DNA of 64,000 bases from Phycisphaerae bacterium (GTDB lineage Bacteria > Planctomycetota > Phycisphaerae > SM23-33): NCBI GenBank assembly GCA_011050235.1, contig DRGC01000018.1:1-64000 (forward strand), read 5' to 3'. Below the pieces are notes generated by a model that did not search any database, was not told the origin of the DNA, and saw only the letters and a program-made list of their open reading frames with translations. Positions within the stretch are counted from its first letter, which is position 1. Every line of letters starts with the position of its first letter. Shown here piece after piece: positions 18,056 through 40,023 of the stretch. The translations under genes and the position numbers were made by a program.

Positions 18056-20656
18056 ATGGCGCCGATGACCGCCACGGTCCAATACAGCCTCGGCAAGGAT
18101 GAGAGGACCCGCAGCGACAAGGCGGTCAAGATGCTGTTCAGCCCTCATCGGTTGTTCCGATACGACGACGGTCCGGATGACGTCGCCGCCCTGGTGCAAA
18201 TCGTTGAGTACTTGGGCGCGACGGCAAACGGGCTGGGGCTCTATGGGCCGGGGCCGCTGCTCGACTACCTCTTCAAGCATGTGCCGGACCTTGCTCACCA
18301 GGCTGCCTGTATTGTCTCCGACGATGCGTCTCTGTGGTCAACACGCATTCATGATCTGGCGGTGCTTGGGCCCGCGCACCTGCCGGCGGGGATCGATACG
18401 GTCTTCCTTTGCGAAACACGGACCGCCAAACGATATTCGATGCGAAAGAGGATAGGCGATGATGTCAGGGTCGTCTGTCCGGGCATACTCGAACAACTCA
18501 ACTGGCGCGAGCTGCCCGACCGAGCATGGGCGCCTGATACCGGGTGCATCTATCCCATCGATATTCCCGAAATCGATATTCCCTCAGGCTTGGATATGGT
18601 CCTGATGGACCTGCCGAGCCGGAATCTGTCGATGATGCCCAACGGGCTTGGGTACGTGAACAAGGCCTTGAAGGCCGCGGGAGTTAAGCACCAGGTCGTC
18701 GACGGGGATATCATCCTCTATCACCGCTATCATACGTTCCGCCTGCTGGACAGCGATGGAGACATTCGCTTGCCCAGCGGCCAGGTCATGCCCGAGGACC
18801 CCTGGGCGGCCGAAGACATGTCGCTGTGGGAACGGCCGGAGACGCTCGATCTGTTCCGCGAAGACTTCGAAGAAATCCTCACCAAGCTGGTGGCCGCTCG
18901 TCCGAAGGTGCTGGGGCTGTCCATCCAGCAGTGCAATCTGATGTTCTGTCGCGAAATGGCCCGCCGGGCCAAGGAGGCCCTGCCCGATCTGGTGGTCATT
19001 GTGGGCGGGTACAGTTGCCGGCATTCGAACGTGGGCCGTGATGTCTTTCCCGAGTGCGACTACATGGCCATACTCGAAGTGGATGACACCATTGGCGAGA
19101 TGGTCCGCAGACTCGCCGCCGGTGAAAGGCCCGCCAACACGCCGGGGTACATCTCCGTTTACGATTCTTCCGACTGGCAATTCGAGCCGGCCCCGTTCCC
19201 ACACGATCTGGACGCCGTCGGAATGCCCGTCTATGACTGGTGCGACCTGGACGTGTACCGCAACTACCAGCATTACCAACTCGTGCCCGTCATCGCCAGC
19301 CGGGGCTGCCACTGGGGTCGCTGCCGCTTCTGTGGCGAGGCGCTGCCGTGGCGAAAACGAAGCCCCAGCAACTTCGTGGACGAGTTGGAATACATGGTGG
19401 ACCAAGGCGCCTACCAGTTCGTCTTCAGCGAGAGCGACCTGAACGGCGACCCGGAGCTGTTCAAGGAAATCTGCCAGGAGATCGTGGACCGTGGCCTGAC
19501 CGTGATTCTTGGCGGACAGTTGCGGATCGACCGGCGCAACACGCGCGACTTCTTCCGCCAGCTGCGAGCGGCAGGATTTGTTTCGCTGCGATTCGGTGTG
19601 GACGGCTGGTCCGCGAATGTGCTGAAGATCCAGAACAAGGGCTACACGGTTGATCAGATCAAGCGCAATCTCAAGGACTGCCATGCCGCGGGCATCTACG
19701 TTGAGGTCAATACCGTCATCGGCTGTCCCGGTGAGACCGAACAGGACGTGGATGATTCGATCGCCCTGATGCTCGAGTGCCATAAGTACATCGGGCGACT
19801 GGCCAACATCAATCCGCTGCAATTGCTTCGCGGCAGTATTTACTTCCGCGATCCGGAAAAGTACGGCATCACGCTCACCCAGCCGAGAGAGGAGCTTGAG
19901 GCGGATAACTTTGCGAGCCTGCCCGAAGATGTCTGGACCAGTGAGGACCCCCACATCGACCGAGAGATTCGACACGCCCGGTGTGACCGGGTCTTGCGTG
20001 CACTGCAGGAGTCGGGCTACGACTTCGGGGCCGGAGCGTCTCCGAAAGTCGAGGCCCTGAACAAAGACGACGACGAGCCGCAGGAGACCACAACGAATCC
20101 GGTCCCGGCCGACCCGGCAGATGGCGCACAGACCTCGCGGATGTTCCGCCATCAGAGCGAATACTACCTGTTTTGCGGAAAGGACAGCGAGTTGCTTTCA
20201 GCACCTCGCAAGCCTTTCTGGCGACGGGCCCTTCGGGCTTTTCGCCGCGTCGACAAATGGGGCACGTACGCAGCCAGGATCTATTACAGCGCCCAGGCGA
20301 CGGTAAGAAAGCAGTGGGAACGGTCGGCTGGCAGACCCGACGAGGATGCCCCCCGCCAGGTCAATGCGGACGACGATTTTGGGCCGTTCAACATTCTCGG
20401 AATTAGCCGCGAGGCGCCACCCTCGATGGTCTGTATGGTCAAGGAATCCTACTTCGGATACAATCTTCTGCGAGTGCAGTCCGGATACGTCGCGGTCAAG
20501 CTCGGTTACCCACTCGATATCGACAAGGCCGCCAGCGCCGATGCCCCCTTGGGGCCTTATGTGCGGCGGGCGACCGTCAAGGAACTGGCGCAGGCCGTAG
20601 CCTCGAAGAGCGCCTCCGCAGAACAACCCATGTTGGTTTGTGAAGAATCCCGATGA
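18056..20656 (+). CDS. Large B12-binding radical SAM protein with extra N- and C-terminal modules
   Basis: This 866-residue protein has at least four parts. Residues about 40-180 look like a Rossmann-type sensor module (GLGLYGPGPLLDYLF, IDTVFLCE). A B12-binding-like domain follows (GLSIQQCNLMFCREMA, VVIVGGYSC), without the DxHxxG histidine. The radical SAM core begins ASRGCHWGRCRFCGEALPW: the cluster cysteines are spaced C-x4-C-x2-C rather than the usual x3-x2. NTVIGCPGETEQDVDDSI is the typical later strand. The C-terminus (about 20440-20610) carries a module shared with three other enzymes of the locus. B12 radical SAM enzymes usually methylate unactivated carbons; here the acceptor is probably a sugar or lipid. 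GGAGG precedes ATG 18056. Confidence 0.85.
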   Translation: MAPMTATVQYSLGKDERTRSDKAVKMLFSPHRLFRYDDGPDDVAALVQIVEYLGATANGLGLYGPGPLLDYLFKHVPDLAHQAACIVSDDASLWSTRIHDLAVLGPAHLPAGIDTVFLCETRTAKRYSMRKRIGDDVRVVCPGILEQLNWRELPDRAWAPDTGCIYPIDIPEIDIPSGLDMVLMDLPSRNLSMMPNGLGYVNKALKAAGVKHQVVDGDIILYHRYHTFRLLDSDGDIRLPSGQVMPEDPWAAEDMSLWERPETLDLFREDFEEILTKLVAARPKVLGLSIQQCNLMFCREMARRAKEALPDLVVIVGGYSCRHSNVGRDVFPECDYMAILEVDDTIGEMVRRLAAGERPANTPGYISVYDSSDWQFEPAPFPHDLDAVGMPVYDWCDLDVYRNYQHYQLVPVIASRGCHWGRCRFCGEALPWRKRSPSNFVDELEYMVDQGAYQFVFSESDLNGDPELFKEICQEIVDRGLTVILGGQLRIDRRNTRDFFRQLRAAGFVSLRFGVDGWSANVLKIQNKGYTVDQIKRNLKDCHAAGIYVEVNTVIGCPGETEQDVDDSIALMLECHKYIGRLANINPLQLLRGSIYFRDPEKYGITLTQPREELEADNFASLPEDVWTSEDPHIDREIRHARCDRVLRALQESGYDFGAGASPKVEALNKDDDEPQETTTNPVPADPADGAQTSRMFRHQSEYYLFCGKDSELLSAPRKPFWRRALRAFRRVDKWGTYAARIYYSAQATVRKQWERSAGRPDEDAPRQVNADDDFGPFNILGISREAPPSMVCMVKESYFGYNLLRVQSGYVAVKLGYPLDIDKAASADAPLGPYVRRATVKELAQAVASKSASAEQPMLVCEESR

Positions 20657-22680
20657 CCGTCATACGACAAAATGATCGCGCGAACGATCCTAAGGTCAGC
20701 TTTGTCCTGCTGGACTGGGGATGTCGCGAGAGCTTTCACACGCTGGAGTATCTGGCCAATCAGGTGACGCCTCGAGACCGTTACGAGGTGATCTGGGTCG
20801 AGTACTATGACCGCCGACCCAGCCAATTGGACGAGTTGATCGCTCGGTACGAAAAGCACGGCCTACCCAGTCCTGTCGACACCTGGATCATCATGGCCCG
20901 TCCCAAGGGGGAGGTCTTCCGCAAGCACTGGATGAACAATCTGGGATTCCTTCATTCTCGCGGAGACATCGTCGTCTTCATAGACTCCGATGCGATCATA
21001 TCGACCACGATCGTCGAGACGATCATGAAGGAATTCGAGAACGACCCGGACGTCATCCTCTACTTGGAGGAAATCCGCACCAGCGACAAGAGATTCTATC
21101 CGTTCTGCTATCCGAGCAAACACGAGATCATTCCGGTCGCGGGCAACCTTGCCAATGGCGTGCCGTTGGGGATGCGGAATTTCCGCTGCGGACTTATGGC
21201 GGACCCGACGCTGATCCACTCCCGCAATTACGGTGCGTGCTTCGCGGCCCGTCGCGATGACCTGACCCGATTCGGCGGGTGGGACGAACACGACGATTAT
21301 TCCGGGTACATTGCAGGCCCTTACGAGATGTCCCTGCGGATGGAGTGGGGCGGAAAGCGCGAACGATGGAGTTTTCTGGAGCTGCTCTGGCACACCCCTC
21401 ATCCGGGCAACGACGGGATCAACAATTTTTCCGGCCCGCACGACGGGAAGGGCGTCTCGACGACGGCGATGGAGATTCTGAAAACCAAGCGAACGCTCCC
21501 CCTGAAGGAGAACCCCGAGATTCGGGCCATGCGAATCAAGCAATTTGGACCCAAGGGGCCTCCCCCGCTGCCGCAAAACGCCGTTGCGCCCAGCACCAGC
21601 CAACCCACGCCGACCAGCCCCATCAAGCCGGACTCTCGCTGGCTTCCGCAACGTCCGGCAAGCCCATGGAACACGGGCATGTTTCACCTGCTGCCCAAGG
21701 TACTCATGGAGATGGAGACGCGGATTTGCGACTACGAATACCCGCGCACACACGTGATCGCCTCGTACGCAAGCATCCTCGCCAAACAACTGAAACTTCC
21801 CCCATCCCAAGTCGAAGAGATTTACGTCGCCGCCATGTTCACAAGCATGGACAATATCTGTGACGTTGCGGCGGCAGGATCAGATGCGAGCGGAAACGGG
21901 ACGGGGATAGGACAGTCTCTTGCCGATCTACTGAACGCCCAACCCCTTATCACAGCCGCCAAGGTCGAGCGGGCAAAAGGCGAGCGCTTTGACGGAACCG
22001 GGAAGGAGGGGCTTCGAGCAGGCCAGATCGCACTTGAAGCAAGGATTGTGGACCTCGCCGAGGGCTTCGACGAACTGGTCAACCTTCGTGGGACGAGCAG
22101 ACCCGTCTCCTTCCACGAAGCCTATCGCACGATCTGCGAGGATTCCGGGAAACGTTTCGATCCAAAGGTCGTGGATGCCTTCAAAGAGTCTGCCGACGAT
22201 CTGGTCAGTGTTCACCTGCGGGCCCAGCACGACACGCTGCCTTTGATGTATCCGTGCCTGCAGCTCGATCCCAAAGGCAACGTCGGCACACTCAAGTTCA
22301 GCGATTTCTACATAGCCTACGTTGCCACGGACGCTGGACCCCAGTACGTGGTGCTGCCTGCCTGGGACAACTCGAAGGATTGGATCTTCATGAGCAGCAA
22401 TGTGGAAGCCATCATGGCGTATGTCACCACGCATATGATTATGGCGGACTATTACGGACACAACATCATCCTCTGCGCGAACCGGTTCTTCGCACTGCGA
22501 CACGGGACACAGGATTTCTCGTTGCGGAACTTCTGCTGCGGCCAATATGGGCGGGCCTGTCTTACCGCCGAGGGGGTGCCGGAACTGAAAAGGGCCATCC
22601 TCCGGAGGCGAATCCGCGAGAAGATCCGCCAGATATGGGTCGCGCCAATCAAAAGGGTCGTTAAGTGGTTCGTCAAGTGA
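20653..22680 (+). CDS. GT2 glycosyltransferase fused to a degenerate HD-GYP domain and the shared C-terminal module
   Basis: This 675-residue protein has an N-terminal GT2 domain (VSFVLLDWGCRESFHTLEYL, FIDSDAIIST as the DxD-type metal site, HSRNYGACFAAR). From about base 21700 to 22220 it follows HD-GYP order: RTHVIASYASILAKQLKL, AAMFTSMDNIC where LLHDIGKI is expected, GERFDGTGKEGLRAGQIAL, ARIVDLAEGFDEL and SGKRFDPKVVDAF. The metal-binding HD and HH are lost, so it should not hydrolyse c-di-GMP but may bind a nucleotide or regulator. The last about 80 residues hold the shared module (YYGHNIILCANRFFALRHG). ATG 20653 overlaps the upstream stop. The GT2 half is a paralogue of 28633-30150. Confidence 0.82.
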   Translation: MTVIRQNDRANDPKVSFVLLDWGCRESFHTLEYLANQVTPRDRYEVIWVEYYDRRPSQLDELIARYEKHGLPSPVDTWIIMARPKGEVFRKHWMNNLGFLHSRGDIVVFIDSDAIISTTIVETIMKEFENDPDVILYLEEIRTSDKRFYPFCYPSKHEIIPVAGNLANGVPLGMRNFRCGLMADPTLIHSRNYGACFAARRDDLTRFGGWDEHDDYSGYIAGPYEMSLRMEWGGKRERWSFLELLWHTPHPGNDGINNFSGPHDGKGVSTTAMEILKTKRTLPLKENPEIRAMRIKQFGPKGPPPLPQNAVAPSTSQPTPTSPIKPDSRWLPQRPASPWNTGMFHLLPKVLMEMETRICDYEYPRTHVIASYASILAKQLKLPPSQVEEIYVAAMFTSMDNICDVAAAGSDASGNGTGIGQSLADLLNAQPLITAAKVERAKGERFDGTGKEGLRAGQIALEARIVDLAEGFDELVNLRGTSRPVSFHEAYRTICEDSGKRFDPKVVDAFKESADDLVSVHLRAQHDTLPLMYPCLQLDPKGNVGTLKFSDFYIAYVATDAGPQYVVLPAWDNSKDWIFMSSNVEAIMAYVTTHMIMADYYGHNIILCANRFFALRHGTQDFSLRNFCCGQYGRACLTAEGVPELKRAILRRRIREKIRQIWVAPIKRVVKWFVK

Positions 22681-22703
22681 CACCACGCAACCGTGACCAA
22701 GAA

Positions 22704-23462
22704 ATGGGCGAAGAAAACTACAATCTGGTGACATACGGTGACAGCGGCCAAGCCGACCGGAGGCGGCAACGTCTCGATCTGGTGCGCAATTGCCCCATCC
22801 CCGATGGCGAACTGCTGCTGAACATGGGGCTGTTCCTCGTGCCTCAGACGCTCTCGCGGATACTGTTCATGGACTTTCTGTACCGCCAGATTCTCGACGT
22901 GCAGGGAATTGTGATGGACTTCGGCTGTCGGTGGGGACAGAATGCCCTGCTGTTCACGGCGATGCGAGGCATCTACGAGCCGTTCAACCGTTTGCGAAAG
23001 GTCGTTGCTTTCGACACATTTGGCGGATTTCCCGGCATCTCAGCCGAGGACGGCAACAGCCAGATGATGTCCACAGGCAGTTACAGCGTCACCGAGGGCT
23101 ACGAGCAGTACCTTGCAAAACTGCTGGAGTTGCAGGAGGCCGAGTGTCCCCTGGAACATATCAGCAAGCACGAGATTTGTAAGGGCGATGCGACGGTCGA
23201 GGTGGCGGACTATCTCCAGCGCAATCGCGAAACGATCGTCGCGCTGGCGTATTTCGATTTCGACCTTTATGAGCCGACCAAGGAAGTTCTTCAGGCAATT
23301 CAGCCCAGGCTGACACGCGGTAGTGTGATCGGATTTGACGAACTGAACGATCCTGATTGTCCAGGTGAAACTCTGGCCGTGATCGAAGTGCTCGGGCTGG
23401 ACCGCTACGCGATCAAACGTTTCCCCTACAACTCTCGGACATCTTATCTGGTCGTGGAATGA
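22704..23462 (+). CDS. TylF/MycF-like SAM-dependent O-methyltransferase
   Basis: This 252-residue protein resembles macrocin/TylF-type metal-dependent sugar O-methyltransferases: MDFGCRWGQNALLF (SAM motif I), AFDTFGGFPGI, and DFDLYEPTKEVLQAI with RGSVIGFDELN, where the acidic residues bind the metal. A sugar hydroxyl is the likely acceptor; capping of a chain end is one plausible role. ATG 22704, after the upstream stop at 22680, is preferred to a GTG at 22665 that would overlap it; neither has a strong ribosome-binding site. It is part of the plus-strand run. Confidence 0.78.
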   Translation: MGEENYNLVTYGDSGQADRRRQRLDLVRNCPIPDGELLLNMGLFLVPQTLSRILFMDFLYRQILDVQGIVMDFGCRWGQNALLFTAMRGIYEPFNRLRKVVAFDTFGGFPGISAEDGNSQMMSTGSYSVTEGYEQYLAKLLELQEAECPLEHISKHEICKGDATVEVADYLQRNRETIVALAYFDFDLYEPTKEVLQAIQPRLTRGSVIGFDELNDPDCPGETLAVIEVLGLDRYAIKRFPYNSRTSYLVVE

Positions 23463-25024: not shown

Positions 25025-26383
25025 ATGCTATCGACAGATGGTTTCAAAAGATCGAAAAGAATGGCCCAGTTGCTGGCGGGCCCGGACGGAAAACAGTCAT
25101 TCGTTTACCATGCCGACATCAAGCGACAGTGGGAATGGTCCTACAGCAGTACGAAAATCGTCGAGCTTATCGGTTCCCAGTCGGGGTCGGCGGAGAGGTT
25201 GTTCGACGTCAAGGCTGCTCTGGGCGCACTCAGCGATGAAGAGACATCCTTCGCTGAAACATTTTCTACTTTCTACGACGACCTGGCGGCGCTATTGACC
25301 AGCATGGCGGCGCCCGTGAACTGCCAGAGCGACATCTACGAGACGATCTTCGATCGCCGGCAGATTGCCCCACTCATCAAGGCGCCCTGTCGCATTCTCG
25401 ACATTGGCCCGGGGGCCGGCAGGCACATGGCGGCTGCCTTTCTCGGCAATGGTGCGGACCAGACGACCTATGTCGGCCTCGAGAGCGTCGGCATGTGCTA
25501 CACCATCCAGAACCTGGCGGCCTCGCTCATCCGCATGCGCAACCGCGATGTCAAATTCTTCGATGACGTCGACGGCCAGTTCGCTCGACAGGACCTGCCC
25601 CCGATCGACCGGAGCAACGGGCCCGCCATCTATCTGCTCCCATTGTGGGCCGGGCAGAAGCTGCCTGACCGCTGTTTCGATCTGATCATCTGCAACTATG
25701 TGTTGGACGAACTGCCCGGAGAGGATTTCCAGCGAGTGGCCCGGATACTCGGCCGATGCCTCGCCGATGATGGCGTGATCTACTGCCGAGGTTCACAGCA
25801 GCGAGCGATGCTGAAAGATATGTATCTTTACGGCTATGGGACCTCCCACGGTATCGACATTACGCGGGCAATTCTTGATGAAGGGATGAAGGTCACGAGT
25901 TGTGAACTGATCGCCGGGGGACTGACGCGAACGTTCGCACGCAGGAAGTGCGGCGCCCGCCGAGTGACCGGAGGCAAGTTCGTCTCCTTCACCGAAGACA
26001 TTCCCCTGCTCGAGGCCGTCCAGGCCCAGTTTATTCGCGATAACATCACCGAAATCGTCTCTGCCGGACAGACGGTGGTGATCTGGGGAGATCGCGGATA
26101 CGAACATTACCGCAAGCTTATCGAGCCCGGCGCCGGGAACATGAAGGTGCTGGCCTTCACGCATCGCGAAGCCGTCGGCAACGCCATGACGGACTTCGAC
26201 GGCAACGAAGTGGCCCCCGAGCAGGCGATCAAACTCAGTCCTGACAAGATCATCATCGCCTCCATGCGCCACAAGAGCATCCTGCGGCAGATTCGCGAAC
26301 GGTGCCCGCCGGGACAGTTCCAGGCCGTTCGACACTTCAACTATCCGATCGCTTTTGCGTATCGTGATATGCCGGAGATGTGA
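25025..26383 (+). CDS. SAM-dependent methyltransferase, paralogue of the preceding gene
   Basis: This 452-residue protein repeats the architecture of its neighbour: methyltransferase motif I as RILDIGPGAGRHMAAAFLG, the acidic loop FDLIICNYVLDELPGEDFQ, then a C-terminal Rossmann-like module (QTVVIWGDRGYEHYRKL, DKIIIASMRHKSILRQI). The two are clearly diverged tandem duplicates, so they probably modify different positions or sugars. ATG 25025 is chosen for GAAGGTAGG just upstream; a TTG-type start at 24980 is not needed. Its stop overlaps the ATG of the next radical SAM gene (TGATG). Confidence 0.78.
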   Translation: MLSTDGFKRSKRMAQLLAGPDGKQSFVYHADIKRQWEWSYSSTKIVELIGSQSGSAERLFDVKAALGALSDEETSFAETFSTFYDDLAALLTSMAAPVNCQSDIYETIFDRRQIAPLIKAPCRILDIGPGAGRHMAAAFLGNGADQTTYVGLESVGMCYTIQNLAASLIRMRNRDVKFFDDVDGQFARQDLPPIDRSNGPAIYLLPLWAGQKLPDRCFDLIICNYVLDELPGEDFQRVARILGRCLADDGVIYCRGSQQRAMLKDMYLYGYGTSHGIDITRAILDEGMKVTSCELIAGGLTRTFARRKCGARRVTGGKFVSFTEDIPLLEAVQAQFIRDNITEIVSAGQTVVIWGDRGYEHYRKLIEPGAGNMKVLAFTHREAVGNAMTDFDGNEVAPEQAIKLSPDKIIIASMRHKSILRQIRERCPPGQFQAVRHFNYPIAFAYRDMPEM

Positions 26384-27846
26384 TGCTGGATCTCCTGCTA
26401 GTGAGGCCTGGCGGCAAGAAACGCCTCTACGGCTCGTTGAGCGAGACATTGGCGGCCGTCGAGCCGCCGATGTGGGTTGGCCTGATGGCGGGGATTGCGC
26501 GAGAGAAAGGATTCTCCGTCAGCGTTCTCGATGCGGACGTCGAAGGCCTGACCGCCCGAGAAGTTGCCGACCGGGTCACCGAGGCCGCCCCGGCGCTGTT
26601 GGGCGTTGTCGTGTCCGGATCGAATCCATCCGCCTCGACGATGAGCATGGCCGAGGCCGGCGATATCCTGCGGGCGGTCAAGGAACTCTCGCCCGAGACT
26701 CCGGCGTTTCTGTCGGGCCTGCACCCCTCGGCCCTGCCGGAACACACGCTCCGTCACGAGTTGGCCGATTTTGTGGTCCAGGGCGAGACCTTTCTTACAC
26801 TTATTCCGCTCCTTGAGGCCGCCAAGAGCCGCTCGCTCGATGGCCCGCTGGAGATACCCGGGCTGTGGGTTCGCCGTGGTGAGCAGATCCTCTCCAACGA
26901 CCGTCCGCCGCTGGTGGCGGACCTGGACTCCCTGCCGATGATCGCCTGGGACCTGTTGCCCATGGATCACTACCGGGCGCATAACTGGCATTGCTTTGCC
27001 CACCCCGATCGTCGCCAGCCCTATGCGGTGATCTATACGTCCCTCGGCTGTCCGTTCCGCTGCGATTTCTGCTGCATCAATGCGATCTTCGGCGCGCCGG
27101 GGATTCGGTATCGCAGCCCCGAAAAGGTCCTCGAAGAAATCGACCTGCTCCACGACACCTACGGCGTGACCAACCTCAAGATCATGGACGAGATGTTCGT
27201 CCTCAAGCCCAGCCACGTGCTGGCCATCTGCGATGGGCTGATCGAACGTAACTACGGCCTGAATATCTGGGCCTATGCCCGCATCGATACGGTCAACGAA
27301 GCGCTGCTGAACCGTCTGAAGGCGGCCGGCGTGAACTGGCTCGCCTATGGCATCGAGGCTGGCAACAACGCCGTGCGCCAGGGCGTGGCCAAAGGGGGGT
27401 TTGATGGCCGGCAAATCCTCAAAGCCATTGCGATGACCAAGGAGGCGGGCATCCATGTCGGAGGCAACTTCATCTTTGGCCTGCCCGAAGATACGGCTGA
27501 TACCATGCAGGAGACTCTGGATCTCGCCATCGAGCTCAACTGCGAGTACGCCAATTTCTACGCGGCGATGGCCTTTCCAGGGTCGGAGCTCTACGACCAG
27601 GCGATCGCGGAGGGGTGGCCACTGCCGACCAGTTGGGCAGGTTACTCGCAGTACGGCCGGGATACTTTCCCCCTGCCGACGAAATATCTGACCAGCAGCG
27701 AAGTTTTGCGGTTTCGTGACCATGCGTTTCGTGAGTACTATTCGCGACCTGAGTATTTGCAGATGCTGCGGGAAACATTCGGCCCCCCCGCCGTCGAGCA
27801 TGTCCAGACGATGCTGGAGCGCAAGCTGGACCGAAAGTATGCGTAG
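26383..27846 (+). CDS. B12-binding radical SAM protein
   Basis: This 487-residue protein has an N-terminal B12-binding-like domain (ETLAAVEPPMWVGLMAGIA, LSGLHPSALPE), a radical SAM core with the canonical CPFRCDFCC (CxxxCxxC), LKIMDEMFVLKP, and GGNFIFGLPEDTADTMQET. This is the arrangement of BchE/P-methylase-type class B enzymes, which methylate or rearrange unactivated carbons. Substrate unknown. The start overlaps the upstream stop by one base, and the downstream GT2 gene follows after a gap of 88 bases in which I see no further element. Confidence 0.85.
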   Translation: MLDLLLVRPGGKKRLYGSLSETLAAVEPPMWVGLMAGIAREKGFSVSVLDADVEGLTAREVADRVTEAAPALLGVVVSGSNPSASTMSMAEAGDILRAVKELSPETPAFLSGLHPSALPEHTLRHELADFVVQGETFLTLIPLLEAAKSRSLDGPLEIPGLWVRRGEQILSNDRPPLVADLDSLPMIAWDLLPMDHYRAHNWHCFAHPDRRQPYAVIYTSLGCPFRCDFCCINAIFGAPGIRYRSPEKVLEEIDLLHDTYGVTNLKIMDEMFVLKPSHVLAICDGLIERNYGLNIWAYARIDTVNEALLNRLKAAGVNWLAYGIEAGNNAVRQGVAKGGFDGRQILKAIAMTKEAGIHVGGNFIFGLPEDTADTMQETLDLAIELNCEYANFYAAMAFPGSELYDQAIAEGWPLPTSWAGYSQYGRDTFPLPTKYLTSSEVLRFRDHAFREYYSRPEYLQMLRETFGPPAVEHVQTMLERKLDRKYA

Positions 27847-27934: not shown

Positions 27935-28648
27935 ATGCCCACCACACCCGTTATCAGCCTGCTGCTGCCCACCAGAGGGCGTGTCGAGCCGCTCCGGCGC
28001 CTTTTCGATAGCATTGGCGAAACGGCCGACAGACCCGACAGCCTGGAAGTCGTCTTGTTCCTCGACAGCGATGACACCGCCAGCCAATCGTTCGATTATC
28101 CCGAATTGAGTCTGAAACGCATTGTCGGCCAGCGGGCCACGATGGGGACGATGGTCCAGGCCTGCTACGAGGCCGCAGCGGGCGAATACATCATGCTGAT
28201 GAACGATGATGTCATCTGCCGAACGCGCGGATGGGATGTGCGAATCCTGGAGGTCTTTGACCGGCTGGCCGATCCGATCGGCATGGTCTGGTGCAACGAT
28301 CTCTATCGCGGCCCGGCCATGCCGAACTTCCCGATCCTATCGCGATCCACCTGTGAGATCATGGGTGGCGTGTGCCCGCAGGACTACCATCGTGACTATG
28401 TGGACACGCACCTGTACGATGTTTTCCGTAAGCTCGAACGCCTCGGGCACCGGCGGTGGTTCTACCTGCCGGACGTGGTGATCGAACACTGCCACGTCGA
28501 GGCCGGCAAGGCGGCATTTGACGCGACCTATCATAAGCCCCGAATGGTGGGCGACGAGCTCGCCTATATCGCCTGGGACGAGAACCGACAGATCGTCGCC
28601 GAGACCATGGCCAGAGCAATCGAGGATGCAACGTGGTCCGCTTCGTAG
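27935..28648 (+). CDS. GT2-type glycosyltransferase
   Basis: This 237-residue protein has a short GT-A fold: VISLLLPTRGRVEPLRRLF, VVLFLDSDDT, and YIMLMNDDVICRT as the metal/nucleotide site. It lacks a membrane segment and is smaller than the other GT2 enzymes here, so it probably works in the cytoplasm on a lipid-linked or soluble acceptor. ATG 27935 is preceded by AAGG, rather close; an earlier TTG at 27920 is possible. Its end overlaps the start of the next gene by 16 bases. Confidence 0.75.
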   Translation: MPTTPVISLLLPTRGRVEPLRRLFDSIGETADRPDSLEVVLFLDSDDTASQSFDYPELSLKRIVGQRATMGTMVQACYEAAAGEYIMLMNDDVICRTRGWDVRILEVFDRLADPIGMVWCNDLYRGPAMPNFPILSRSTCEIMGGVCPQDYHRDYVDTHLYDVFRKLERLGHRRWFYLPDVVIEHCHVEAGKAAFDATYHKPRMVGDELAYIAWDENRQIVAETMARAIEDATWSAS

Positions 28649-30150
28649 TCAATCAGCCCCAGGAACATGCCCTGGTAAGCATCGTGCTTCTGGACTGGTC
28701 CTGCCGGGAGAGCTTTCATCTTCTGGACTATCTGGCAGCTCAAACCGTCGACCGCAGCCAGTATGAGATCATCTGGACGGAATTCTACGACACACCAGCC
28801 GAGGGATTGTGCCGCCGAATCGACACCGCCCAGGCCCAGTCGACTCGACCGCCCGTGGATGTCTACGCCCTCATGGACTTCCCGCCGGAGCTTTGTTGCC
28901 ACAGGCACGCACTGTTTAACCTTGGCATCGTCCTGGCCCGGGGGCGGATCGTCTGTTTCTGCGATTCCGACGCCATTGTTCAGCCAACGTTCGTCGAATC
29001 GATCATCGAACATTTTCGACACCAGGAGGACACCGTCCTTCATATGGACGAGGTGCGCAACAACGATCCCAGCTTCTATCCGTTCAACTACCCGAGCCTC
29101 GACGAGGTGACCGGTTTCGGTTGCATTAACTGGATCGACGGTCGGCCGGTGGGGATACTGGACGAGGCCGATCCGCTTCACAGCCGCAACTACGGTGCGT
29201 GCATGGCCGCTGCCAGGGACGACCTGATCGCCATCGGCGGCGCGGACATGCACACGGACTACCTCGGGTACATCTGCGGGTTCTACGAGATGAGCTGGCG
29301 GCTGACGAACTTCGGGCGACGTGAGGTGTGGTCGGATCGCGAGTGGCTGTACCACGTGTGGCATCCGGGGCAGACGGGAAACGAAGATATTGCCGGCCCC
29401 CATGACGGGCTGAGTGTTTCAACGCGGGCCCTGCAAGCTCTCCGCTCCGACCGCGTGCAGCCGTTCGTGGAAAGCCCCGCCATCGTATCGCTTCGCACAC
29501 AGACAGCATCGCCGGACGACGCAGCGCTGCTTGAACAGTTGGTCGAGCCGGCGTGGCTGAATCAATGGCGGCACGACAAGGCCGCCCCGGCCGGGGATAT
29601 GGCAACGACTAAACGGCGATCTGTGACGCCTCCTTTTGGCTTGAGGCTGTCATTCTGGGCCAAGCTGCAGCTCATGCCGCTTGTAGCGGGGATGGCCCGG
29701 CGGCAGCTTCGGGTTAAGCGTCAGGCGGCTGCGTGGTCCAGGCCGACCGGCCCCAAAGGCCGTTTGCACAACGGGATTCGAAAGGTCATCGCGCTCAAGA
29801 GCTTCCTGAAGCGCATTTATACCTTCGATAAACACTGGATCCGCCAGTGCTGGCTGGCGCTGGCCTTGGCTGAACAGCGCGGCTGCCGCGAACTGGTGCT
29901 CTATGGTGAAGGCGATGCGGCAAAGGCATTATGTCACCTCGCCAGGCATCTCCCCGTGGAGATCGTCGGGATATGTCCGTTTCGGACCCACAGGCCGGAG
30001 AAGCTGCTGGGGCGAAGGTCGCTCACGCACGAACAATTGGCCGAGACGGATGCCCTCATCATCCTTGCGGCATTTGTTGATACCGCTGCGCGTCTGGAGC
30101 AACTTCGCCAGCTCGGCATCGATCGCGAAAGAGTCATTGTCCTGCGATGA
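28633..30150 (+). CDS. GT2 glycosyltransferase with C-terminal Rossmann-like module
   Basis: This 505-residue protein is a paralogue of the GT2 half of 20653-22680: VSIVLLDWSCRESFHLLDYL, FCDSDAIVQPTFVESII, SFYPFNYPS and HSRNYGACMAAARDDL. Instead of the HD-GYP-like and shared tail, it ends in a Rossmann-like module (RELVLYGEGDAAKAL, TDALIILAAFVDTAARL, IDRERVIVLR). No ATG lies near the start of homology, so GTG 28633 is used, within the end of the preceding gene. Donor and acceptor are unknown. Confidence 0.8.
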   Translation: MVRFVVNQPQEHALVSIVLLDWSCRESFHLLDYLAAQTVDRSQYEIIWTEFYDTPAEGLCRRIDTAQAQSTRPPVDVYALMDFPPELCCHRHALFNLGIVLARGRIVCFCDSDAIVQPTFVESIIEHFRHQEDTVLHMDEVRNNDPSFYPFNYPSLDEVTGFGCINWIDGRPVGILDEADPLHSRNYGACMAAARDDLIAIGGADMHTDYLGYICGFYEMSWRLTNFGRREVWSDREWLYHVWHPGQTGNEDIAGPHDGLSVSTRALQALRSDRVQPFVESPAIVSLRTQTASPDDAALLEQLVEPAWLNQWRHDKAAPAGDMATTKRRSVTPPFGLRLSFWAKLQLMPLVAGMARRQLRVKRQAAAWSRPTGPKGRLHNGIRKVIALKSFLKRIYTFDKHWIRQCWLALALAEQRGCRELVLYGEGDAAKALCHLARHLPVEIVGICPFRTHRPEKLLGRRSLTHEQLAETDALIILAAFVDTAARLEQLRQLGIDRERVIVLR

Positions 30151-34212: not shown

Positions 34213-36096
34213 TTATCGAGAGATCATCGCCTTTACCCCCTCGATCGTTTGACCCACAAAACACGTGCCCCCCTTCTCAAGCTGGCGCAGGTCCCTGTCC
34301 GAAAGAGCCGTCACGTCCAGCGGGCCCAGCGACCTGGCGAGGGCGAGAATTTCATTGCCGTAACGGATCAGGTTGAACTCCTTGTGCGAACCGATCAGTT
34401 GCGGCGTGGGCGCCGTGGGTAGGGAATAGCTGGCTGGGTCGAACGGGTAGAAGTCGACATAGGGCCTGTCGGTGTAAAACGCTTCGGCCGGGTCCGATGA
34501 CAGCGGCAAGGCGGCCAGATGTTCCGACAGGTCCAGGATCAACTTCTTGTGGCATTGCGTGCATGAATGGATGAAGGGCATGAGCTTCACGCCCGGCTGA
34601 ATTCGCAGAGGGTACAGGTAGTCCGTATGCTCGGCGCAGTGAGGACAGACAGCCCGGATCCTGTAAACCGTTCGACGGAGTTCGAACGGCGCATCGCGAT
34701 CGGGTGTGGGCTCGTCTGTTGGCGCCACAGATTCCACCGTCGCTCGCCTGGCATTGAAGATGTCGCTGATGACCGGCGCCGTGAGCCCGTAGAAGGTCTC
34801 ATCATCCATGCCGGTCATGTTAATCCCCCCCTTGTCGTGCGCAACGGTCCTATAGTAGGTCTCGCGGTCGCAGATGAGGCCGCGGTCGAGGCAGTGTTGG
34901 AACAGCTCGCTGCCCGGGTAGGGCACGATGTGATAGGAGTACACCGTCAGATCGCGGCAGTGCTTCCGGAAGAAGTCGATGGTCGTACGAATGGTCTGCG
35001 GCGTTTCGGCGATGTCGCCGTAAATGAAGTTGCCGTGAGCGCCCAGCCCGACCTTCTGTGTGACGGCCAAGCCTTTGCGGATCATCTCCGGCGTCGTCCC
35101 CTTCTTCATGCTCTTGAGGATGATCTTGCTGGCGCTCTCCAGGCCGTAGCCGATAAACCGACAACCAGAGGCCTTCATCTCTCGCAGCAGGGATTCTTCA
35201 GCGTCGTTGAGGCGCATGTAGCATCCCCAGTCGAAGTCGGCCCCCGACTGCTCTTTGTAGGCTCGGACCTTTTCACAAAACTCCCTGCCTTTGTCGACAT
35301 TGATGAACAACAGCTCATCGTGGATGTAGAGAATGTTGAAGCGATATCGTTCGTAGAAATGGGCGACCTCCGCCATCACATTGTCGATGGACCGAGCGCG
35401 GTATGTCGCGCCCTTGTAATGGCAGCAGAACGTGCACTTGAACGGGCATGACCGCCCGACGGTCACAGGCAGGATTCGTGGATGCTCGCGCGTGTGGGCG
35501 AGGAAATTGTTCGTCTGGTTATCCACCGACAGGTATTGCTCGAAATCGAAGGGCCCGTAATTGGGCAAAGGCAGGGCGTCGAGATCTTCGGGGGATTTCA
35601 GCGGATTGCAGGTGGGCTCGCCGTTGTTCCAATAGATCAGATTGTCCACAGCCGTGATGTCGGCGCCGCTGTCGAGATGGTCGACGAGCTGGACGATTGA
35701 GAAATCAGCTTCACCGATTACGCCGAAGTCCGGGCGGAGGTGTGGAAAGATAAAGTCCGGGTCGTAGGTGAGGAGCCCCCCGCCAATCACGATGGGAACG
35801 TCCGGGGCGATCTGCCTGGCGAAGAAGATCGTATCGCGGACAAAATGGTAATCGGGCGCCAAGCCACTGACGCCAATCAACTGTGGGCGGTATTCGGCGA
35901 TCGCCTGGCGAAGCATCCGCTCGAGCGTGAGAGGGGCCGAGCCATGGCACCAGACATAATTCATGTTGAGGCCGAACACTTCATGTCCCGCTTCGGTCAG
36001 GGCGGCAGCCAGATAGGGCATGCCCTGGCCGAAGCTGGTCGCGTCCGGCTCGGGGTGGGGATAGTTATTCTTCGATGGTATCAGCAGAACACGCAT
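34213..36096 (-). CDS. B12-binding radical SAM protein with zinc ribbon and shared C-terminal module
   Basis: This 627-residue protein has the B12-binding-like N-terminus (MRVLLIPSKNNYPHPEP, VSGLAPDYHFV, VIGGGLLTYDP), a radical SAM core with SCPFKCTFCC (CxxxCxxC) and HGNFIYGDIAETP. Beyond the core it has a CPHC...CTQC zinc-ribbon-like segment (around base 34540-34660), then the tail NLIRYGNEILALARSLGPLD and GTCFVGQTIEGVKAMI shared with the neighbouring sulfotransferase. ATG 36096 starts the recognisable domain; AGGG lies upstream. It sits between the SGNH and sulfotransferase genes on the same strand. Confidence 0.85.
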   Translation of the reverse strand: MRVLLIPSKNNYPHPEPDATSFGQGMPYLAAALTEAGHEVFGLNMNYVWCHGSAPLTLERMLRQAIAEYRPQLIGVSGLAPDYHFVRDTIFFARQIAPDVPIVIGGGLLTYDPDFIFPHLRPDFGVIGEADFSIVQLVDHLDSGADITAVDNLIYWNNGEPTCNPLKSPEDLDALPLPNYGPFDFEQYLSVDNQTNNFLAHTREHPRILPVTVGRSCPFKCTFCCHYKGATYRARSIDNVMAEVAHFYERYRFNILYIHDELLFINVDKGREFCEKVRAYKEQSGADFDWGCYMRLNDAEESLLREMKASGCRFIGYGLESASKIILKSMKKGTTPEMIRKGLAVTQKVGLGAHGNFIYGDIAETPQTIRTTIDFFRKHCRDLTVYSYHIVPYPGSELFQHCLDRGLICDRETYYRTVAHDKGGINMTGMDDETFYGLTAPVISDIFNARRATVESVAPTDEPTPDRDAPFELRRTVYRIRAVCPHCAEHTDYLYPLRIQPGVKLMPFIHSCTQCHKKLILDLSEHLAALPLSSDPAEAFYTDRPYVDFYPFDPASYSLPTAPTPQLIGSHKEFNLIRYGNEILALARSLGPLDVTALSDRDLRQLEKGGTCFVGQTIEGVKAMISR

Positions 36097-36152: not shown

Positions 36153-37310
36153 TTACGATCTTTCGACAGCATCATGCTTGGGGGAATCATGCCTCGAGGC
36201 GGCGGCTGCGTCGATGCGCTGTTTGATTTGTATTGGGGACTCGCCCACCAGACAAGTTCCCTCCTGTTGGTGGCGCAGCAGTTCTCGATCGCTGCATGCA
36301 TGCAGATCCAACGGGCCGGCATCACACGCAACGGCATGGAACCGCCCCTGATGGAATAACACGTTGTAGCCTCGATCGTCCTGCTCAATCAGTCGAGGCA
36401 GATGGCTGTGGCGCAGTTGCTGGGCGAGCAACTCGATGAGGCGTTCGTCGTCAGCCGGCGCGAAATGCGGGCGCCCGGCGATGTCGCCCGGAATAGCCTC
36501 GTTGGGAGCTTGGCGCCATTCGGCGGGAACGGACAGGCCGAAGTGCTTTCCCAGCAGCGCCTCCAGCCGCACCAGCCCCGGCTGGAGCGCATGGAACAGA
36601 TAGGCCCTCAGGCCGGTGGGCATCGGCACGGGCAGGCCGGGGAGGACCCGCTCGCCCAGCGGAAAGTCGGACAGATCCACGCTCGGAGTGATCCCCAGAT
36701 GTCCAAACGCCTCCAGCAACACACGCTGCGGGTCGGCCTGAATGCCTTCGATAAAACGCACGTGGAACTGGTCAGACGGGAACGCCGAAAGCCATCGTTC
36801 CAACGACGCGGCATAATCTCCAAAGGCCAGGTAGTAATCCAACCATGAATCATTGGCGATATCTGAGGCCGACAGATCTTCCAGCGAGCCACGGTAGTCT
36901 GTATACCCGCTCACGCGATAGCGATAGTCGTGGCGAATATGCGACCAGGCGCGCTCCACCGGATCACGCATCACGAACAGCAGTTTCAACTCAGGGAAAA
37001 GGGAGTAGATCTTTTGGATCACCGGCGTTGGCAGCAGCATATAACTGCCTCCGACATCTCCGCGGCACTTGTCTTCGCCCCCTGCGAATGTCGCCAAAAG
37101 CCAGTTGATGTCATACCACTGCCAGAAGGTGCAGAAGTACTTCAGCTCTTTTGTCGGGACAAGAATATCCTTGTGACAAACGAGATTATCCTGCAGCCAG
37201 GTGGTCCCTGTCTTGGGAGCTGAGATGACAATGAAGTTCAGGCGGCTGTCCACCAACTCCGGCTGCACGTGTCCCACGTGCTGATCGTATTGATCCCACG
37301 GCGCGGTCAT
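36153..37310 (-). CDS. PAPS-dependent sulfotransferase with shared C-terminal module
   Basis: This 385-residue protein has the sulfotransferase P-loop-like 5'-PSB motif SAPKTGTTWLQDNL and the 3'-phosphate motif VMRDPVERAWSH, so it should transfer sulfate from PAPS, here most likely to a sugar hydroxyl of the exported glycan. The last about 75 residues are not part of the usual sulfotransferase fold: YNVLFHQGRFHAVACDAGPL, then SDRELL and GTCLVGESPIQIKQRI, matching the tail of the radical SAM protein next door. The start is uncertain between 37310 and an ATG at 37343. The 286 bases between it and wzt show nothing else. Confidence 0.83.
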   Translation of the reverse strand: MTAPWDQYDQHVGHVQPELVDSRLNFIVISAPKTGTTWLQDNLVCHKDILVPTKELKYFCTFWQWYDINWLLATFAGGEDKCRGDVGGSYMLLPTPVIQKIYSLFPELKLLFVMRDPVERAWSHIRHDYRYRVSGYTDYRGSLEDLSASDIANDSWLDYYLAFGDYAASLERWLSAFPSDQFHVRFIEGIQADPQRVLLEAFGHLGITPSVDLSDFPLGERVLPGLPVPMPTGLRAYLFHALQPGLVRLEALLGKHFGLSVPAEWRQAPNEAIPGDIAGRPHFAPADDERLIELLAQQLRHSHLPRLIEQDDRGYNVLFHQGRFHAVACDAGPLDLHACSDRELLRHQQEGTCLVGESPIQIKQRIDAAAASRHDSPKHDAVERS

Positions 37311-37596: not shown

Positions 37597-38943
37597 TCAG
37601 CCGGGCACGGACATTCGGGAGACGACCGACAGCGACATCTGCAGGTCCGCCAGTCCGTCAAAGGGGGCGTCTTCGTCAACAATGAAATGGATCAGATCGT
37701 ATCGGCCATCCAACATCTCCGTCTCGCCGGTGGTTCGATCTCCGATCCCAAGGCCCAGGAACCAGTGACCTGAATGGAGGCTAAGCTTCAAGGTGAACTT
37801 GAACACTCGAATCTCACCGGCCGTTGCGGGCGGGATCGGAAGGTTGCTGACGACACTGCTGTTCCCGTAGACAACGACACCGTCAACAGTCTTGACGTTG
37901 ATCCCGAACGTGGGCGCTGCGACCTCCTTCTCATAACAGGCCTTGACATAGATATCGACTGTGTCGCCGCTTCTCACGATTACGGGGTCGAAGTCGCCCC
38001 CCCGGACCACGAGGTAGTCGATGATTCTGGCTCGAGCACTGCCAAACCGGCGCTCGGTTCGGTTGTAGGTGCGCCGGGTGGGGCAACGGTCCTTTTCCGG
38101 GGTTGTCTTGAGAAACCGGTCCAACTCGTTGTCCATCTCGGGTTCCGGTGAGGTGAGCGACGTTCGTGCCGGGCCGGATGTGTCAGCCTCCGCGCCATTC
38201 AGCGCCTGGCCGAACAGTAACTCGTTGTACTGGTTGCAGACGTCGTTCGGATCGCCGTAAGCGAGGGCGGCCCCCTCTTGCAGCAACAGGGCGACGTCGC
38301 AGTGGCGGGTGACGAGTTCCGTGCTGTGCGTCACTAGAACAATGGTCTTTCCCGCCTTCTGGAAGTCCGTGAATTTCTGAAAGCACTTGCGTTGGAATTT
38401 CGCATCGCCGACGGCGAGGGCTTCGTCGACGATGAGAATATCCGGGTCGACGTTGATTGCCGCCGCGAACGCCAGCCGTACGAACATGCCCGAGGAGTAC
38501 GTCTTGACCGGCTGGTCGATGAACTCGCCGATGTCGGCGAACGCTTCGACCTGCGCCATCCGGCTGTCCATTTCCCGATTGCTGATGCCCATCAACTGGC
38601 CTTGGAAAATCACGTTGTCGCGCCCGGTGAATTGCGGATTGAACGCGGCGCCGAGCTCCAGCAGGGCCGAAATACGGCCCTCGGTGGTCACCTCGCCCAT
38701 CGACGGGCGGAGAACGGCGCAGAGAATTTGCAGAAGGGAGCTCTTGCCCGACCCGTTGCGTCCGACAATGCCCAACGTCCGGCCTTTGGCCAGGTCAAAG
38801 GTAATGTTCCGCAGCGCCCAGAACTCCTTGTGGTACTGCTTGCGGAACGGGTGCAGCGCCTCGAGCAGGCGATGCCTCGGCGTGGCGAACAGGCGATACT
38901 TCTTCGACACGTCGCGCACGGAAATGGCGATGTTGTCGGTCAT
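37597..38943 (-). CDS. wzt: ABC transporter ATP-binding protein, Wzt type with C-terminal domain
   Basis: This 448-residue protein has an ABC ATPase half (Walker A GRNGSGKSS, signature YSSGMFVRLAFA, Walker B DILIVDEALAVGD) and a long C-terminal beta-sandwich half from about residue 270 (DTVDIYVKACYEKEV, FKFTLKLSLHSGHWFLGL). In O-antigen Wzt proteins the C-terminal domain recognises the modified chain end before export. A methylated or otherwise capped terminus would fit the many methyltransferases nearby. ATG 38943 starts four bases after the stop of the permease gene, the usual Wzm-Wzt order. Confidence 0.9.
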   Translation of the reverse strand: MTDNIAISVRDVSKKYRLFATPRHRLLEALHPFRKQYHKEFWALRNITFDLAKGRTLGIVGRNGSGKSSLLQILCAVLRPSMGEVTTEGRISALLELGAAFNPQFTGRDNVIFQGQLMGISNREMDSRMAQVEAFADIGEFIDQPVKTYSSGMFVRLAFAAAINVDPDILIVDEALAVGDAKFQRKCFQKFTDFQKAGKTIVLVTHSTELVTRHCDVALLLQEGAALAYGDPNDVCNQYNELLFGQALNGAEADTSGPARTSLTSPEPEMDNELDRFLKTTPEKDRCPTRRTYNRTERRFGSARARIIDYLVVRGGDFDPVIVRSGDTVDIYVKACYEKEVAAPTFGINVKTVDGVVVYGNSSVVSNLPIPPATAGEIRVFKFTLKLSLHSGHWFLGLGIGDRTTGETEMLDGRYDLIHFIVDEDAPFDGLADLQMSLSVVSRMSVPG

Positions 38944-38947
38944 GATC

Positions 38948-39748
38948 TCACAGGGCCTCCACAAAGTCCGGCTTGAGCCTGCGGAACACCCACCCCCCCA
39001 GGCCGAATACCAGCAGTGCGACCACCCAGAAATAAGCGCCCATCGAGGGATTTTCCCAGAAGCCCGTCTGGGCGGTGAAGGAGCTGCGATAGCCCTCGAC
39101 GACGTAATACAGCGGGTTGAGCTTGAGGAATATCCGGTACTTCTCCGGCAGCATGTCGGGTTGCCAGATAATGGGCGTCAGCCAGAACCACATGGTCAGC
39201 AGGACCGTAAGGACTTGGGCCACATCGCGGTAAAACACATTCAGCGCCGACACCAGCCAGCCCAGCCCCATGGAAAAAATCGATAGCCCAACCAGGAAAT
39301 ACAGGAACTGGAGGTTGTAGAAGGAGAAGCCGATTCCGTAGACGATGAGTAATATAGCCAACACCACCAGCATGATCGCGTGGGTGACCATCGCGACCAC
39401 GAGGTGGACGACGACCAGTATTTCCGTGGGAAAGGCCGTCTTCTTGACCAGATGCGGGCTGACGATGATGGCATTGACGCTGACGGTGATGGTTTCGGCG
39501 AAGCACGTCCACGGGATAAAGCCCGTCAGATAGATGATGATGAAAGGCAGATCCTTGCCCCGACCTACCTTGAAACCCACCGAGAAGACAAACCAGTAGA
39601 CACCGATCATCATCAGCGGGTGAAGGACCGACCATGCCAAGCCTAAGGGCGACCCGGCGTAACGGGACCGGAGCTCCCGGCGGGCCATCACCCAGATCAA
39701 TGAGCGATTGGTGTAGATTCGGCCAAAGAATTTTGCAAGTGCGTGCAT
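38948..39748 (-). CDS. wzm: ABC-2 type polysaccharide export permease
   Basis: This 266-residue protein has six membrane helices after the amphipathic N-terminus; RRELRSRYAGSPLGLAWSVL is the family's conserved entry segment, and LTPIIWQPDMLPEKYRIFLK and LNPLYYVVEGYR are typical of Wzm/TagG. It forms the channel that carries a finished polyprenyl-linked glycan across the inner membrane with Wzt. ATG 39748 or GTG 39757 are both possible. It is divergent from the methyltransferase at 40024 across 275 bases; that interval holds a perfect TTGACA at 39951-39956 on the plus strand, but no matching -10 box. Confidence 0.9.
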   Translation of the reverse strand: MHALAKFFGRIYTNRSLIWVMARRELRSRYAGSPLGLAWSVLHPLMMIGVYWFVFSVGFKVGRGKDLPFIIIYLTGFIPWTCFAETITVSVNAIIVSPHLVKKTAFPTEILVVVHLVVAMVTHAIMLVVLAILLIVYGIGFSFYNLQFLYFLVGLSIFSMGLGWLVSALNVFYRDVAQVLTVLLTMWFWLTPIIWQPDMLPEKYRIFLKLNPLYYVVEGYRSSFTAQTGFWENPSMGAYFWVVALLVFGLGGWVFRRLKPDFVEAL

Positions 39749-40023
39749 GGGTCTCACGTTGAGTTTTCGGCGGCCGTCACACAGAGGACTATGGCTGGCG
39801 CGGCTCGGGAATGATCTGAACGACCCATTGCCGCACCCGCCGCGACACGTTCAACGACGCCCGCCACAGCTCGGAGTCGAATGCTATTCGATTCACCGGG
39901 GCCTTACAAGCTTCGCACCGGGCAGCGCGTCCCGCTGCAGCGAAGGGGGCTTGACAGCCGATGCCCGGCGAACAAGATAGACATCGGATAACGGCCGGGC
40001 GTCCTGTCCGGGTCGGACGCGTG

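Follow-up and report, generated by a model that had tools for sequence, protein, structure and literature searches.

We analysed a stretch of 64,000 nucleotides from a Phycisphaerae bacterium (assembly GCA_011050235.1, contig DRGC01000018.1, positions 1 to 64,000 of the forward strand), hereafter the window. The gene studied here encodes a fusion protein and lies among the following neighbours:

18056..20656, + strand: B12-binding radical SAM enzyme (PF04055, PF02310; syntenic at the locus of the ortholog described below)
20653..22680, + strand: open reading frame of the fusion protein (P0001, 675 aa), made up of a GT2 domain, a degenerate HD-GYP domain and a module
22665..23462, + strand: methyltransferase-like protein (Methyltransf_24 match below cut-off; 66% identical to its counterpart; syntenic)
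26380..27846, + strand: second B12-binding radical SAM enzyme (syntenic)
28633..30150, + strand: GT2 paralog without an HD-GYP domain, whose C-terminus reads from the sequence as a different, Rossmann-like domain
37597..39757, - strand: Wzt/Wzm-type ABC transporter (domain matches ABC_tran + Wzt_C; ABC2_membrane)

The fusion gene and the radical SAM gene upstream of it share the letters ATGA, in which the start codon of the former overlaps the stop codon of the latter, as expected for a translationally coupled operon. The locus holds three B12-binding radical SAM enzymes, methyltransferases, GT2s, a sugar epimerase, a DegT-family aminotransferase, a sulfotransferase and the Wzt/Wzm-type ABC transporter, the last of which marks it as a locus of polysaccharide export. 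This gene content points to a locus that makes and exports a modified polysaccharide. Furthermore, the presence of three B12-dependent radical SAM enzymes together with an ABC polysaccharide exporter (window 9784-39757) suggests that the glycan is unusually modified.

The fusion protein itself is laid out as follows:

20653..21552, + strand: GT2 glycosyltransferase domain, residues 1-300, with a DSD motif at 111-113 (PF00535 above the Pfam cut-off, E 1.8e-5; 77% identity to the ortholog)
21673..22221, + strand: degenerate HD-GYP domain, residues 341-523 as best limits, with no alignable metal ligand and with G-K-E in place of GYP
21838..21912, + strand: shortened HD-GYP lid (position of the HD motif, loop L7/8 and start of helix 8), residues 396-420 (26% identity to the ortholog; low pLDDT)
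22450..22602, + strand: partial copy of a ~50-aa module (YYGHNIILCANRFFALRHG...), residues 600-650, common to other enzymes of such loci
22579..22677, + strand: C-terminal basic amphipathic helix, residues 643-675 (from predicted helix and charge)

The DXD motif of the GT2 domain (D111-S112-D113) is invariant across five relatives. A short insertion, MRNFRCG (residues 174-180; window 21172-21192, + strand), is present in both HD-GYP-bearing GT2s and missing from the other GT2 relatives aligned. Directly after the HD-GYP core both orthologs carry the conserved motif VHLRxxHDxLxxMYPC (residues 521-535; window 22213-22257, + strand), which is absent from ordinary HD-GYPs. At the far end, both orthologs finish in an amphipathic helix of strongly basic character, with a net charge over the last 34 residues of +10 in the fusion protein and +9 in the ortholog, and it is possible that it serves as a peripheral membrane anchor.

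A sequence-only reading of this region had proposed that its conserved blocks follow the order of HD-GYP phosphodiesterases. The blocks are present in that order (ExxDGxG, ARI, FD and FDP..V), and Pfam HD_5 (PF13487) matched residues 443-506 with an E-value of 1.1e-9 and 38.7 bits against a cut-off of 27.2, a cut-off that the ortholog also passed with 33.9 bits. The NCBIfam model NF053512, a NosR-family c-di-GMP phosphodiesterase, matched residues 350-520 (E 1.5e-16) at 60 bits, far under its cut-off of 400 bits, which supports homology and not membership in that family. The sequence matches of the fusion protein in the PDB, PA4781 (4r8z), PmGH (4mcw) and V-cGAP3 (5z7c), are all HD-GYP proteins. 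A profile built from 32 other HD-GYP domains, with both fusion proteins left out, scored 81.5 bits for the fusion protein and 63.4 bits for the ortholog, whereas the region shuffled 20,000 times reached 11.3 bits at best, the reversed fusion protein scored about 0 bits, and the neighbouring GT2 paralog gave no match. The homology to HD-GYP domains is far above chance, a conclusion that rests on sequence statistics.

The predicted structure agrees with this assignment. AlphaFold2, run on an alignment that included HD-GYP relatives, gave a helical core with blocks at pLDDT values of 93-98, with a shortened lid and a tail of low confidence; the HD-GYP rows in that alignment could bias this confident model. 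The model contains the predicted HD helical core and the two extra C-terminal helices (core pLDDT >90). In a Foldseek comparison with the PDB, all nine matches at E <= 0.001 were HD-GYPs (PA4781, PmGH, DvhD), such that at this threshold the predicted fold matches HD-GYP structures only; the match to PA4781 had an E-value of 3.7e-7 and a TM-score of 0.61-0.66 by target length. A model made from the two orthologs only was poor (pLDDT 43), and its top-ranked, non-significant Foldseek matches, which are no more than suggestive, were again HD-GYPs, with an E-value of 0.008 at best. The poverty of that model, and the absence of every alignable ligand described below, are what one would expect if the resemblance were an effect of chance or composition in a helical linker. 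However, the profile score stands far above those of the shuffled copies, the Pfam cut-off is passed in both orthologs, and HD-GYP structures head the matches even of the weak two-sequence model. This explanation was rejected at the sequence level on the shuffled, reversed and GT2 paralog controls, and we give it virtually no chance.

Only one relative with the full architecture was found, a protein of 676 aa with 55% identity, encoded in a genome from the same family of Planctomycetota but from a different genus (genome G017; contig JAAYCO010000153.1 of the Planctomycetota MAG AS06rmzACSIP_458). The order of genes around it matches that in the window: two transketolase-like genes, a B12 radical SAM gene, the fusion, three methyltransferase-like genes, a second B12 radical SAM gene and a GT2, with 49-66% identity between whole proteins of the operon at the two loci. 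Since the same fusion recurs in the same operon order in a second genus, and in an independent MAG, an assembly chimera was rejected; the fusion has been inherited, and it did not arise from misassembly or as a pseudodomain of recent origin. It was not found in the other genomes of the family (35 searched in all) or in the other genomes of an evenly drawn class sample of 397, and its tail, the part searched in a phylum sample of 392 genomes, was not found there. Whole-genome profile searches for the fusion covered the genomes sampled within Planctomycetota, and plasmids, phages and genome_contigs, the last scanned with exact peptide patterns that distant fusions could escape, held no further fusion beyond the one ortholog.

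Between the two orthologs, the only two sequences from which conservation could be judged, identity was 77% in the GT2 domain, 33% in the linker, 47% in the HD-GYP region (50% in its core without the lid) and 26% in the tail (547-675). The HD-GYP core is thus better kept than linker and tail and falls within the range of the operon, which suggests that the fold is maintained and argues against an inert spacer. We therefore regard a decaying relic that acts as an inert spacer as very unlikely: the lid region has diverged and none of the alignable catalytic residues is left, as decay would have it, but the open frame and the fold have been kept across two genera, and an inert spacer should drift faster than a core that is better conserved than the linker beside it.

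We compared the metal site with that of PmGH, in which E185, H189, H221, D222, H250, H276, H277 and D305 act as metal ligands (PMC4159591). The E185 position is Y361 in the fusion protein and L in the ortholog, and that of H189 is R365 and R, respectively. The HD motif (H221-D222) is T397-S398 in the fusion protein and G-S in the ortholog, the HH pair (H276-H277) is K442-G443 and K-G, and the last ligand aspartate, D305, is E470 and Q. The loop and helix that follow the HD motif (L7/8, the lid), to which the sequence-only reading makes no reference, are much shortened in both orthologs, and the H250 position falls within this poorly aligned stretch, where, with the alignment uncertain, neither ortholog has a histidine. 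As a whole, the HHExxDGxGYP motif reads KGERFDGTGKE in the fusion protein and KGQRYDGKGC in the ortholog. At the counted positions, the other HD-GYPs of the profile set almost all retain the canonical residue. The structural aspartate of PmGH, D308, is retained as D473 in the fusion protein and as D in the ortholog. As far as the alignment reaches, no metal ligand is left in either ortholog, and the domain is expected not to hydrolyse cyclic di-GMP. The replacement of HD by TS and of HH by non-ligand residues had been read from the sequence before and is borne out, with further losses at R365, K451 and E470; sequence, predicted fold and conservation in a second genus give good support to the wider proposal of a GT2 fused to an inactive HD-GYP.

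Loss extends to the residues that contact cyclic di-GMP. The GYP tyrosine (PmGH Y285) is K451 in the fusion protein and C in the ortholog, and the PmGH K317 / DvhD R653 position is S482 and G, so that the YR/YK pair reads TS and AG. The arginine at PmGH R314 / DvhD R650 is retained, as R479 and R. DvhD of Desulfovibrio vulgaris (9rbz), in which HD has become SQ and HH has become MN, binds cyclic di-GMP metal-free with an effective Kd of ~99 nM, with canonical-site contacts from Y523, L577, K582, Y621, M646, R650, Y652 and E668 (PMC13090378). Among these eight, only R650 (R479) and, conservatively, M646 (L475) are clearly retained. The equivalents of Y621 and Y652 are lost in both orthologs, L577 and K582 map to the lid, which is shortened, and the Y523 position holds Y361 in the fusion protein and L in the ortholog; the E668 position falls at D497/S498, beside a one-residue gap, where exact placement is not possible. 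R479 and the FDELVNLR block at the pocket rim are fully conserved between the two orthologs. The canonical site probably does not bind cyclic di-GMP, and the cyclic-dinucleotide binding suggested by the sequence-only reading finds no support in the residues, as the equivalents of Y285/Y621, K317/R653, Y652, L577 and K582 are lost or deleted in both orthologs while R479 and L475 are kept.

Both genomes encode GGDEF and PilZ proteins, and cyclic di-GMP signalling is thus available in them. Elsewhere in the window's own genome, a gene (G000:C83:12513-13619; loci L005, L008) codes for a protein in which two HD-GYP domains stand in tandem. The GGDEF proteins, together with the conserved R479 and L475, would suit a dead HD-GYP that serves as a receptor for a cyclic dinucleotide or another nucleotide and controls the attached GT2 in the manner of DvhD. 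Control of a GT2 by a fused c-di-GMP receptor is known from the PilZ domain of the cellulose synthase BcsA. MshEN c-di-GMP receptor domains fused to glycosyltransferases also exist (PMC5013675), and DvhD shows that binding can persist metal-free with HD and HH both replaced (PMC13090378). However, the tyrosine of GYP and the YR/YK pair are gone from both orthologs, the lid with L577 and K582 is shortened in both, the Y523 position is a tyrosine in one of them only, and a loss deeper than that of DvhD would require a rebuilt site; a receptor of this kind is, in our judgement, rather unlikely. Its specific form, a GT2 switched directly by a cyclic dinucleotide or other nucleotide bound to a metal-free HD-GYP in a rebuilt pocket centred on R479, we likewise consider unlikely; if true, it would be a third route, besides PilZ and MshEN, to second-messenger control of a glycosyltransferase. 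It is just as doubtful that the domain has been remodelled to take up some other ligand at its old pocket, for example a nucleotide sugar, a glycan acceptor or a partner peptide. The pocket-side positions R365, S398, K442-G443 and N477-L478 are identical in both orthologs and unlike canonical HD-GYPs, and the extension after the domain is conserved, as such reshaping would predict, but with two sequences only, the shared differences may be mere inheritance.

The ~50-aa module in the tail has a consensus near YkgyNIvrydgryyAvpqslGpvDl... and is sometimes repeated 2-4 times. Its carriers are GT2s, B12 radical SAM enzymes, sulfotransferase-type proteins, a methyltransferase and an APS-kinase protein, and such loci occur in Planctomycetota and Azospirillum. 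Besides the copy at 22450-22602 (+), the window holds copies at 34222-34386 (-) and 36213-36374 (-), and others lie at loci L102, L103, L040 and L046; no Pfam family was found at the module in the module-bearing proteins scanned. The tail of the ortholog has a partial copy (E 2e-5), and the copy in the fusion protein is marginal when taken alone (8.5 bits versus 7.2 for the best of 2000 shuffles). The module may be a pathway docking tag. Other GT2 relatives carry repeated modules or a Rossmann-like C-terminus at the place of the HD-GYP domain. Two further observations concern related proteins. At L046 (G004:C33) a single frame of >1250 aa encodes a radical SAM enzyme fused to the module, to a GT2 of the type described here and to what reads from the sequence as a second GT2-like stretch. 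At L099, which is catalogued as a viral contig (IMG/VR 3300027819_000014), a GT2 of that type adjoins a B12 radical SAM enzyme; this contig may be host DNA or may carry virus-borne surface-glycan genes.

The reading that we favour, and to which we give an even chance, is that a dead HD-GYP has been reused as a scaffold or docking domain in a GT2 of an ABC-exporter-type polysaccharide locus. On this view, the GT2 would have acquired an HD-GYP domain between its catalytic domain and the C-terminal module. The HD-GYP domain would then have kept its helical core but shed the metal centre, the lid and most of the pocket for the nucleotide. It would now be structural, most likely serving dimerisation or the docking of the GT2 to other pathway enzymes, beside a C-terminal helix that would associate with the membrane. 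That other GT2s of the family have different accessory domains in this position is in keeping with modular docking, and the tendency of HD-GYP domains to dimerise, as in PmGH (PMC4159591) and DvhD (PMC13090378), helps a structural reading. Against the scaffold, the conserved R479 and FDELVNLR at the pocket rim could mean that some ligand is still bound, and cyclic di-GMP signalling is available in both genomes. Altogether, the protein is a clear case of a domain from a second-messenger enzyme family built into a biosynthetic enzyme after its chemistry was lost. Were the domain to bind a nucleotide, glycan synthesis would be tied to signalling by a new and direct connection; a structural role would illustrate how signalling domains come to be recycled as scaffolds. 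Either way, it cautions against annotating HD_5 matches as phosphodiesterases.

With the HD-GYP phosphodiesterases PmGH, PA4781 and RpfG the domain shares homologous sequence, the predicted helical core, the ExxDGxG, ARI, FD and FDP..V blocks and the structural aspartate (D308); it differs from them in having neither metal ligands nor GYP, in its shortened lid and in its fusion to a GT2. MshEN-glycosyltransferases and BcsA with its PilZ domain likewise combine a glycosyltransferase with a domain from c-di-GMP biology, but their receptor domains keep the binding motifs, whereas the HD-GYP domain of the fusion has lost most of its pocket. Naturally inactive HD-GYP relatives also include PA2572, with YN instead of the HD pair (PMC3749722), and the degenerate HdgB, described as without GYP residues (PMC6205966), and in contrast to the protein studied here, neither is described as a glycosyltransferase fusion. 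Thus, dead HD-GYPs and glycosyltransferase fusions to c-di-GMP receptors are already known, and a fusion of HD-GYP and glycosyltransferase, of which we found no description in the open-access literature searched, is apparently undescribed there. That HD-GYP relatives without catalysis can act as receptors, as the sequence-only reading had stated, now has a proven case in DvhD (PMC13090378). As in DvhD, HD and HH are both replaced in the fusion protein, and its predicted fold matches that of DvhD. However, DvhD is a PAS/HD-GYP membrane receptor that retains the GYP tyrosine, the lid, R650, Y652 and R653, whereas the domain linked here to a GT2 retains only R479 and the hydrophobic L475, a deeper loss of contacts.
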